From assembly GCA_002238825.1 (NCBI GenBank), contig MPNC01000001.1:496001-560000 (forward strand): DNA of 64,000 nucleotides, in the 5' to 3' direction. Source of the stretch: SAR202 cluster bacterium bin87. Lineage in GTDB: Bacteria; Chloroflexota; Dehalococcoidia; Lucifugimonadales; UBA3495. The notes under the pieces were generated by a model that had not been told where the DNA came from, did no database searches, and saw nothing but the letters and a program-made list of their open reading frames with translations. Shown in pieces: positions 33,828 to 62,074 of this stretch; the first letter of the stretch is position 1, and every line of letters begins with the position of its first letter. A program made the translations under genes and the position numbers.

Positions 33828-34258
33828 GTGGTCGTATCGCGCCTTAGCTTGAATGCATCAAATATTCAGTGCAATCTTCCGGTATTCTTGAAGAAATCGA
33901 TAACTTGCTCCTATTCCCGGCCCCTTTGGAACATGGTCATAATCTATCCCGCCGATAATCCATCGTCAATACCGATACGCTTTCGCACCAGGGCCTGTGC
34001 AAAGTCCGTCCTCCCGCTCATGGTGAGCTTGTCGAACCACGACTCCGGCAACGGCAGCATCCTTCGACAGGCTCAGGATGAGCGGAAACCAAAGAAGCCT
34101 ATTACTTTGCACAGGCCCTGGCTTTCGCACGTGGAACCCTTGCACCAACAACGAGGACACCGCGGGGAATGCACCCGGCTCCGCTGCCGGCGCGACGCGC
34201 GGTCGCGCGACGGGTTAGACTGTGCATGCTTTCCACCGCGCCTGTGCGGTTTCATTCC
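33828..34258. other. Intergenic region between rex and DUF503 gene
   Basis: 431 bases without a supported gene. It contains the 132-bp MITE-like element (33989-34120). The remainder holds the rex upstream region on the left and, on the right, a GC-rich inverted repeat near 34189-34217 and a TAGACT -10-like box near 34217 ahead of the DUF503 gene. Reading frames through it have no family resemblance. Confidence 0.6.
33979..34130. mobile_element. 132-bp MITE-like element with 10-bp target-site duplication
   Basis: The element at 33989-34120 has perfect 17-bp terminal inverted repeats (cagggcctgtgcaaagt at 33989-34005 and its complement at 34104-34120). The bases just outside it are identical: gctttcgcac at 33979-33988 and again at 34121-34130, a 10-bp target-site duplication. 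The interior carries a second palindrome (arms near ctcatggtgagcttgtcgaa and ttcgacaggctcaggatgag). No transposase is encoded, so movement would need a transposase in trans. It is non-coding and lies in the rex-DUF503 intergenic region. Confidence 0.85.
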
Positions 34259-34558
34259 ATGCACGTCGCCGTAGCTCACATCACCATCCGCGTGCCTGAA
34301 AGCCGTAGCCTCAAGACCCGTCGGCAGGCCGCGCGAAGCCTGATCCAGCGGATCCGCAGCCGTTTCAACGTCTCGGTCGCCCAGGATGCCGGCGCTGACG
34401 GCAACTTGTGGCAGAGCCTTACGCTGGCGGTCTCATGCGTGGGAGCCAGCGCGGACCAGACCCGGTCGTTGATCGACGACGTGGTCGCTTTCGTGGAAGA
34501 GGTTCGTCCCGATCTGGAACTTCTCGACTACCAGATCGAAGTCATGGGAGGGTTCTGA
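34259..34558 (+). CDS. DUF503 (YlxP-like) protein
   Basis: 99-residue protein of the DUF503 family: MHVAVAHITIRVPESRSLKTRRQAARSLIQRIRSRFNVSVAQ, then GNLWQSLTLAVSCVGASADQTRSLIDDVVAFVEE and the terminal LELLDYQIEVMGGF. The ferredoxin-like fold family is linked to ribosome maturation genes in other bacteria; the molecular role is undefined. ATG at 34259 gives the standard N-terminus. Confidence 0.85.
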   Translation: MHVAVAHITIRVPESRSLKTRRQAARSLIQRIRSRFNVSVAQDAGADGNLWQSLTLAVSCVGASADQTRSLIDDVVAFVEEVRPDLELLDYQIEVMGGF

Positions 34559-34566
34559 AAATCTAA

Positions 34567-34605
34567 ATCGCCCGAACCTCCGGGGGAGCCGGAGATCCGG
34601 GCGAT
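34567..34605. terminator. Bidirectional terminator between DUF503 and SelW-like genes
   Basis: Outer arms atcgcccg (34567-34574) and cgggcgat (34598-34605) enclose a second stem ctccgg (34578-34583)/ccggag (34589-34594), giving a strong branched hairpin between two convergent genes. Confidence 0.65.
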
Positions 34606-34619
34606 CATCGGCACACGGG

Positions 34620-34889
34620 CTACATTCGGTCGCTGATCGCGGCCATCAGGTCCTGCAGGTCTGGGAACAGGTGAGCGTCGGGCGTGTGCTTATGCTCGCC
34701 GACCAAATCACCGTCGATCAGGATGTCGAACTTGCCGTGTTCCCCGGGTGTGAGTTTGAAGGTCGATATGTTGTCACCCGTCCGGGTCAGTGCTTCGCTG
34801 GCCATCCAGGCCGCGCGTCCGGCATGCCCTCAATCCCAGCAGTAGACGATTTCGATTTCCATCCGCTTTACGTCAGGTCTCTGAGCCAT
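34620..34889 (-). CDS. SelW-like (Rdx family) selenoprotein, in-frame UGA = Sec
   Basis: Read with UGA as selenocysteine, this is an 89-residue thioredoxin-like Rdx/SelW protein. The redox motif is C-W-D-U at residues 17-20 within EIEIVYCWDU, immediately after the first beta strand, exactly where SelW carries CxxU. The following GHAGRAAWMASEAL helix, the LTPGEHGKFDILIDGDLV beta hairpin and the FPDLQDLMAAI helix match the family. The UGA (34832-34830) is followed 21 bases later by a 7-bp SECIS-like hairpin. ATG at 34889 has a gggaggg ribosome site. Conventional gene finding would see only the 61-residue part after the UGA. A Cys-replaced homologue is absent here, so a pseudogene is the alternative, but the intact flanking frame argues against it. 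Confidence 0.8.
34796..34815 (-). promoter_or_regulatory. Putative bacterial SECIS element of the SelW-like gene
   Basis: On the minus strand, bases +15 to +34 after the UGA fold as CGCGGCC-[UGGAU]-GGCC-A-GCG: a 7-bp stem with a one-base bulge and a 5-base apical loop with G in second place. Position and loop fit the bacterial SECIS consensus (loop 16-37 bases after UGA). Confidence 0.55.
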
Positions 34890-34992
34890 GGGTTCCCTCC
34901 CTCTCGTCGACGTCGCTGGCGTTTTCGTTGGGGCGGATGATAGGGCAATCCCGTTTACCGCGCAATGCCGGTCGATGGTGCCCGGGGAGCGG

Positions 34993-35793
34993 TCAGCGCT
35001 GGGCGGTCATCGCCTGACTGGTGTCGGAGCCGACCACCTGATCCATCCAGCCGCAGACGCCTTCCCAGAATTCGGGGAAATCTCCAACGTTCATGTGGCC
35101 GGCCGTATCGATGGCAACCAACTGCTTGGGCTCCCTCGCCGCATCCAACAGCTTCGTTCCCTGGCTGAACGGGACGACTTCATCGTCCGTGCCGTGCAGG
35201 ATAAGCAATGGACAATCGATCCGATCAACCAGCTTCACCGAATTGTAGCGGTCTCCGACCAGGCGCCCCGACCACGTCAACCTCGGGTAGGCCAGCCGGC
35301 CCATGTCGCGCAGCGAGGCGAAGGGGGCCACGAGCGCCATTCCCAGTGGAGAAAAGGTTTCGGACGCCAGCCGGATCGCCACCGCCGCCCCCATCGATAC
35401 GCCCATGAACAGCGTATTGCCCGGTTCCGCTCCGTAGTTCTTTTCCAAGTGAGCCAGCGCGGCCCTGGCATCCGCGGCCGTGCTTCGTACCGTTGCCCGG
35501 CCACGGCTGTTTCCGAAACCGCCGTAGTCAAATCCGAATATGTTCGCGCCGGTGTGTTTCCGGACCGCCGCGAATTCCCCGACCCGTAGGCTGAGGTTCC
35601 CTCCGGCTCCTCCGAACCACATCCAGGTCAGGTCGGTTCTACGGTCACCGGGGACAAACCAGCATTGCAATCTGTGACCCGGTTCGGATTCGCACCAGGT
35701 CTCGTAAAACTCCATCCCCATGTCGGTCGGGAGGGCGTCGGTGACCGGTTGGGGCTGGAAAAGTAGGCGGCGTTCCAGTATGCCCAAGAACAT
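34993..35793 (-). CDS. Alpha/beta-hydrolase (serine hydrolase)
   Basis: 266-residue alpha/beta-hydrolase resembling small ABHD13/BEM46-type proteins. Catalytic triad candidates are Ser in the nucleophile elbow LFMGVSMGAAVAI, Asp in LILHGTDDEVVPF and His in AIDTAGHMNVGDF. The strand NIFGFDYGGFGNSRG with the oxyanion-type Gly cluster precedes the elbow. The N-terminus is hydrophobic (FLGILERRLLFQPQP), so a membrane association is possible. Substrate unknown. Confidence 0.8.
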   Translation of the reverse strand: MFLGILERRLLFQPQPVTDALPTDMGMEFYETWCESEPGHRLQCWFVPGDRRTDLTWMWFGGAGGNLSLRVGEFAAVRKHTGANIFGFDYGGFGNSRGRATVRSTAADARAALAHLEKNYGAEPGNTLFMGVSMGAAVAIRLASETFSPLGMALVAPFASLRDMGRLAYPRLTWSGRLVGDRYNSVKLVDRIDCPLLILHGTDDEVVPFSQGTKLLDAAREPKQLVAIDTAGHMNVGDFPEFWEGVCGWMDQVVGSDTSQAMTAQR

Positions 35794-61073: not shown

Positions 61074-61586
61074 ATGCGTCTCAAAGATGGTGACATCGCC
61101 GCAGCTGTGGCGCGCGCTTTGGCTGCCTCCAGGGACCCTGCCCAACCCGCAGATGACGGCAGGTCTTCGGAGAAATATGCTCAACTGAGCATGGATTTCC
61201 GGGCGAGCGCCTGGCGTCACCTCAACGAGGACGGCGATTTGCCCCAGGCTTCGAGCAAGGCTTGGGGCATGGTCGCTGAGACCATCAAGGCGGTCAGCGC
61301 TCAACACGGGGGGATTATCCATGCCCACCGTTCGATATGGCACGTGATCCGTGAGCTAAGCCGTCTGGTCGGTGAGACTGGTGACGAGCAGACGCAAGCG
61401 TGGATCAACAACGCTTTCAGGAGCGCCCGTTCGCTGCACACTAACTTCTATGAGGACGAGGAGTCACAGACCGAGGTGGCCGCGGGGATCGCGTTGTGCG
61501 AGGAACTCTCCGACCGTCTTTACGAACTCTTCTGGACAGATCGTTCCCATGATGCTGCGCCCCCGAATACCGAGGTCAACCCATGA
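61074..61586 (+). CDS. PaREP1-like helical protein
   Basis: 170-residue, mostly helical protein. The middle contains SSKAWGMVAETIKAVSAQHGGIIHAHRSIWHVIRELSRLVGE, a pattern of the PaREP1/HEPN-like family. Its ATG is 61074 and the TGA stop overlaps the ATG of the Sec-containing peroxiredoxin-like gene by four bases (ATGA), so the two are co-translated. HEPN-type proteins may bind nucleotides or RNA; the role here is unknown. Confidence 0.65.
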   Translation: MRLKDGDIAAAVARALAASRDPAQPADDGRSSEKYAQLSMDFRASAWRHLNEDGDLPQASSKAWGMVAETIKAVSAQHGGIIHAHRSIWHVIRELSRLVGETGDEQTQAWINNAFRSARSLHTNFYEDEESQTEVAAGIALCEELSDRLYELFWTDRSHDAAPPNTEVNP

Positions 61587-62074
61587 GCGAAAAACTCCAA
61601 CAGGGCGATCGCTTGCCCGAACTGTCCCTGGACTTGATCGACGGCGGGAAACTATCCCTCCCCGGTGACATGTCATCCCGCTACCTGGCGGTTCTCTTTT
61701 ACCGCGGCCTGTGGTGACCCTACTGCTCGCGGCAGTTGGCCGCGTGGCAGTCGCAACAGGATTCTCTTGCCGAGATGGGGCTCTCCATCATCGGCGCCAG
61801 CGTGGAACCCAGGGAAGTCGTGGAGGAAATGGCCACCAAGTCGGGCGTCAACTTTCCCATGGCTTACGGCGTAACCCGTGAGCAGGCCGATATCCTCGGC
61901 TCCTGGTGGTCCGACGACCGCGGCGGATACATCCAACCCACCGAGTTGTTGCTCGGTCGCGGGGGCACCGTGCTGGGCTCTATGTACGCCAGCGGCCCCG
62001 TCGGTCGCGTGAGCCCGGACGAGGCCGTGTACTTCATACAGGGCCGCGAGCGCGCCCGTTTGCGCAGTCAATAG
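61583..62074 (+). CDS. AhpC/TSA-like peroxiredoxin-fold selenoprotein, in-frame UGA = Sec
   Basis: Read with UGA as Sec, a 163-residue thioredoxin-fold protein. Residues 35-55 are LAVLFYRGLW-U-PYCSRQLAAW: Sec45 replaces the peroxidatic Cys of the RGxWCPYC motif, with Cys48 as partner (UxxC). The preceding PELSLDLIDGGKLSLPG and following LAEMGLSIIGASVEP, TKSGVNFPMAYGVT and GYIQPTELLLGRGGTVLGSMY are classic AhpC/TSA blocks. The UGA (61715-61717) is followed 16 bases later by a 10-bp hairpin with loop AGUUG. It is coupled to the PaREP1-like gene. Conventional gene finding would truncate it at the UGA. A nonsense mutation is the alternative but would not explain the hairpin or the Cys position. 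Confidence 0.85.
61724..61749 (+). promoter_or_regulatory. Putative bacterial SECIS element of the peroxiredoxin-like gene
   Basis: Bases +7 to +32 after the UGA: stem UGCUCGCGGC / GCCGCG(U)GGCA with one bulged U, one U-G pair, and apical loop AGUUG (G second). Loop begins 17 bases after UGA, within the usual window. Confidence 0.65.

Follow-up and report, generated by a model that had tools for sequence, protein, structure and literature searches.

A SelW-family gene with an in-frame UGA predicted to be read as selenocysteine in a SAR202-like Chloroflexota genome

The locus and its reading frame

We analyzed a stretch of 64,000 nucleotides (the window) from the SAR202 cluster bacterium bin87. 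A small gene of the SelW/Rdx family lies on the minus strand between an alpha/beta hydrolase gene and a convergent DUF503 gene. The features that we discuss are as follows, with the evidence for each in parentheses where it applies.

34620..34889, minus strand: SelW/Rdx-type selenoprotein gene, 89 amino acids, CWDU motif, ending in TAG (sequence reading, family profiles, homologues, selection, and fold)
34830..34832, minus strand: in-frame TGA at codon 20, read as selenocysteine (TGA in 90 of 93 distinct homologues)
34796..34815, minus strand: bacterial SECIS hairpin with 7 pairs, one 3' bulge, and a UGGAU loop (folding, co-variation, and synonymous constraint)
34894..34905, minus strand: probable Shine-Dalgarno stretch GAGAGGGAGGGA, purine-rich, 5' of the ATG (read from the sequence)
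34566..34606, minus strand: terminator-like hairpin, 18 pairs, with a T-rich tail, in the space where the SelW and DUF503 genes converge
34993..35793, minus strand: alpha/beta hydrolase gene, a conserved neighbor, upstream in the same direction, with a genuine TGA stop (Pfam and synteny)
34169..34558, plus strand: DUF503 protein gene, convergent, a conserved neighbor (Pfam and synteny)
61583-62068, plus strand: peroxiredoxin-like selenoprotein candidate with an RGLWUPYC motif and a TGA at 61715 (AhpC-TSA, E = 5.5e-17)

The SelW frame opens with an ATG at 34889, has one in-frame TGA (34832-34830), and closes with a TAG that ends at 34620. According to the initial annotation, translation through the TGA gives a SelW-like protein with C-x-x-U after the first strand. 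The readthrough product is indeed such a protein: it has 89 amino acids, with CWDU at that position, and begins MAQRPDVKRMEIEIVYCWDUGHAGRAAWM. As was also foreseen for any annotation without selenocysteine (Sec) decoding, a standard list of open reading frames shows only a 61-amino-acid piece (34620-34805).

The gene order FeS protein-hydrolase-SelW-DUF503-Rex-atpC is found at eight loci from congeners and at two loci from the wider family (L055-L059 and L061-L065), and SelW has different or truncated surroundings at the more distant loci L066 and L067. In three congeners (G005, G007, and G009; loci L133, L134, and L135), DUF503 comes soon after the hydrolase gene, and the whole SelW gene is cleanly absent from its place between the two; G007 and G009 have a remaining gap of about 30 bases. 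No functional link between SelW and its neighbors is obvious from the conserved order. We also noticed a perfect 18-nt inverted repeat at 33988-34121 of the window, with its arms 98 nt apart, in the space that separates Rex from DUF503. It may be a small mobile element or one of the REP-like type.

Protein family, fold, and conservation of the UGA codon

The SelW product scores above the curated cut-offs of both Pfam Rdx (PF10262; 50.8 bits, cut-off 22.6) and NCBIfam CXXU_selWTH (TIGR02174; 36.9 bits, cut-off 34.2). The TGA column aligns with cysteine (Cys) of homologues, and C17 and U20 are invariant in our alignment (A2). The AlphaFold2 model of the product (pLDDT 90.2) has a thioredoxin-like fold whose first strand spans residues 10-16 and whose first helix spans 23-40, with CWDU between the two. 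When we compared the model to the PDB with Foldseek, the 21 best matches were all chains of SelW-family proteins (E values down to 3.6e-7). The modeled fold agrees with the solved structures of the family.

A profile built from 29 relatives matched six of these structures (Atu0228, which is 2FA8, as well as 2OKA, 3DEX, 2P0G, 2OJL, and 2OBK) with E values of 4e-23 to 2e-20. All six have the same fold as the SelW product and are about 28-38% identical to it in structural alignments; they are from Proteobacteria and Streptomyces, outside the Sec-decoding order of the present gene. Mammalian selenoprotein W (2NPB) has the Rdx family, the CxxU motif, and the thioredoxin-like fold in common with our protein, but the sequence match is weak (profile E = 0.032). 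The SECIS elements of eukaryotes differ in type from those of bacteria and are located in the 3' UTR (PMC1088965).

Among 93 distinct SelW-like sequences from genomes of the order, the Sec position is encoded by TGA in 90, by TGC in one (L044), and by TGT in one (L111). The remaining sequence (L037) is a second copy beside a TGA-bearing copy; it has an Asp codon, and both of its redox residues are gone. TGA is fixed across many genera and in three groups of SelW paralogues, and no further in-frame stops were seen inside the SelW matches of the relatives. Each of the three SelW-like genes in the genome under study itself carries TGA. The initial annotation had named loss of the frame in close relatives as evidence that would count against Sec, and instead the relatives retain both frame and TGA. 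Across the phylum, the Rdx matches are mixed: about 51 of 77 among the matches listed have one TGA and the rest do not, and this search gave no match whatever for several of the sampled members of the same class. The named relatives are metagenome-assembled Dehalococcoidia/Chloroflexota (one is a SAR202-cluster bin), and some of them are sponge-derived, as we read their bin names.

One locus (L078, G055:C10:159700-160600) has tandem SelW genes, one with Sec and the other with neither Cys nor Sec (YSLSD). Judging from its sequence, the second gene is possibly a redox-dead copy of SelW.

The hairpin past the UGA

The initial annotation described a hairpin of 7 pairs that begins 14 nt after the UGA, with a five-base loop and a G at the second position of the loop. 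All of this stood (CGCGGCC/GGCC-A-GCG, loop UGGAU), and what had been missed was a one-base bulge (A) in the 3' arm. The bSECIS model (PMC13188914) has a loop of 3-9 nt, an upper stem of 4-16 bp, a distance of 16-37 nt from the UGA to the loop, a G in the first two loop positions, and an MFE of -7.5 or below. The SelW hairpin is within every one of these constraints: its loop has 5 nt, with a G at the second position and another G after it; the loop starts 21 nt past the UGA; and the energy is -11.9 to -12.2 kcal/mol. This energy is unremarkable for the sequence (z of -1.3 to -1.6, with 14 to 21 of 200 shuffles equally stable), so we dropped folding energy as proof of a SECIS and used co-variation and synonymous constraint instead.

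Among 21 distinct sequences, 88.4% of the pair cells hold standard pairs, versus 80.0 in shuffles and 30-48 with slid partners. There are 13 two-sided pair changes (versus 2.9 in shuffles), which are carried by two pairs and are shared among related sequences, so that there are fewer independent events than these counts. The co-variation score of 0.322 (versus 0.144 in shuffles) was reached by 0 of 500. Pair 21/33 was seen as GC, UA, CG, and AU, which are all four of the Watson-Crick types, and this requires three or more independent changes there. Each partner is the third position of an Ala codon, and constraint on the protein therefore does not explain their match. Synonymous differences among the congeners are also at their lowest here, with 0.035 in codons 24-32 versus 0.548 elsewhere; this is the lowest value of all nine-codon windows.

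In two groups of SelW paralogues, the hairpin is shifted by three bases and the loop is mostly CGUGGA or CGUGGC, again with G at the second position. The three copies without Sec have all lost the lower stem, and one of them keeps the upper stem. Because the loss is only partial, we set aside hairpin loss in Cys-type homologues as a strong line of evidence. Overall, the retention of TGA in 90 of 93 homologues and the co-variation of the hairpin show that the combination of an in-frame TGA and a hairpin is more than chance, and on these comparisons we regard the predicted hairpin as a true SECIS element of the bacterial type.

Selenocysteine decoding in the genome and its order

Absence of selB or selC from the genome had been named in advance as evidence against Sec. 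Both were found, with a tRNA-Sec match of 66.4 bits (ARAGORN identifies it as tRNA-SeC with anticodon tca) and a SelB match of 352.7 bits (curated cut-off 242), and so were SelA (544.5 bits, curated cut-off 268) and SelD (373 bits, curated cut-off 125). These genes are on contigs other than the window's, and the genome is rated as 4.8% contaminated. In three congeners whose assembly is a single contig (G002, G006, and G010), SelB, tRNA-Sec, and a TGA-bearing SelW gene are on one chromosome, which rules out a binning error. Across the order, 56 of 60 genomes have SelB above the cut-off and 53 of 60 have a tRNA-Sec match of at least 59.7 bits (both counts include the genome under study).

The expectation of a second, unrelated Sec gene in the window was also borne out, by the peroxiredoxin-like gene on the plus strand. 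All 13 members of the genus in which a close match was seen keep its TGA at 61715, as do more distant relatives, and the hairpin past this TGA is more stable than most shuffles (z of -2.45). In a codon-score scan of the window, this gene and SelW were the only plausible Sec genes; the remaining candidates have the look of antisense frames or of genes that lie side by side, and two such frames contain further stops. In the whole genome (G000), 9 of 14 matches to the AhpC/TSA family have one in-frame TGA, which makes them candidates by match. SelD (L051, G000:C42:681408-682328) has one in-frame TGA too, and from its sequence it is probably a selenoprotein itself. We rejected the AhpD type (CMD) as a further Sec family, with a single weak in-frame-TGA match among 17. 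The nine TGA-bearing AhpC/TSA genes, together with three SelW genes and SelD, point to a large selenoproteome.

We conclude that 34889..34620 on the minus strand is a real gene, from a marine or sponge-associated member of the Chloroflexota, and that it encodes a small SelW-family redox protein with UGA used as Sec. Its predicted product is an oxidoreductase with a thioredoxin fold in which the UGA at codon 20 would be translated as Sec via SelB and the SECIS (probability of roughly 0.97). The machinery, the conserved frame and TGA, selection, and SECIS co-variation all support this reading, which the initial annotation had put forward. Sec-tRNA(Sec) would be made by SelA and SelD and carried by SelB, which would bind the hairpin just past the UGA and so deliver Sec at codon 20. 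Given the family and the CxxU motif, Sec is expected to be inserted in the cell, and Cys17 and Sec20 would form a reversible selenenylsulfide and take part in thiol redox chemistry. From the motif and the fold, we infer thiol/selenol oxidoreductase activity and an interaction with glutathione.

A standard ORF finder gives only the 61-amino-acid fragment, as it would for a pseudogene in which a Cys codon had mutated to a stop and the remainder was decaying. Among ten congeners, however, the 19 codons that precede the UGA have a dN/dS of 0.034 and the 69 that follow it have one of 0.044, and the latter value excludes decay following a stop mutation. The fixation of TGA over many genera and three paralogue groups, without other in-frame stops, also stands against a pseudogene, which we consider extremely improbable. 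A genome-wide reassignment of UGA (to Trp or Gly, for example) would account for a sensible readthrough protein with no special decoding. But 8 of 13 other genes that were checked in the window end in an ordinary TGA stop, including the hydrolase directly upstream of SelW; none of these has an internal TGA; and the TGA column aligns with Cys rather than with Trp. These ordinary stops exclude reassignment for practical purposes.

It is very unlikely that the stop is leaky or regulated, with insertion of a near-cognate amino acid, or that the downstream 61-amino-acid ORF, which has an in-frame ATG at 34805, is the real product. The codons before the UGA are as strongly constrained as those after it, the redox motif would disappear, and both the hairpin and the full Sec machinery fit Sec insertion. 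An alternative that concerns the hairpin alone is that it arises as a by-product of codon conservation (RAAWMA) and that another structure nearby serves SelB. The amino acids there are nearly invariant and the folding z-scores are modest, as this alternative would have it, but the strongest co-varying changes are at third positions of two Ala codons that protein constraint does not tie together, the synonymous sites are most frozen at just this place, and the lower stem is gone from all three copies without Sec. We therefore regard a by-product as improbable.

SelW-like proteins were the most abundant family of marine selenoproteins in two surveys, of the Sargasso Sea and GOS (PMC1088965, PMC2398784), with 427 Sec versus 56 Cys forms in GOS (PMC2398784), and Cys forms are few in Sec-using organisms (PMC1794560). 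The present gene has in common with known bacterial SelW-like selenoproteins the family, CxxU after the first strand, a bacterial SECIS just past the UGA, and few Cys forms. It differs in its host, which belongs to a Dehalococcoidia/SAR202-like order of Chloroflexota, in the combination of CWDU with a GHAGRAAWM helix start, and in its moderate Pfam score (50.8 bits). For Chloroflexi, the count in a survey from 2006 was only three selenoproteins (PMC1794560), and our literature search found no paper that joins selenoproteins with SAR202. Thus, the type of protein is already known and the decoding mechanism is standard; what is new is the occurrence of this protein in a poorly described lineage of Chloroflexota.

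We lean, by a little, towards the broader interpretation that this order is an undescribed selenoprotein-rich lineage of marine and sponge material, in which Sec is nearly universal, SelW has multiplied to as many as three or four Sec copies per genome and is lost whole but seldom exchanged for a Cys form, and there are many Sec enzymes of the peroxiredoxin type. Because standard annotation truncates SelW and the sibling genes, the selenium biology of an uncultured group of marine Chloroflexota is under-reported. More widely, this order of Chloroflexota decodes Sec throughout, and the genome seems to be rich in selenoproteins.
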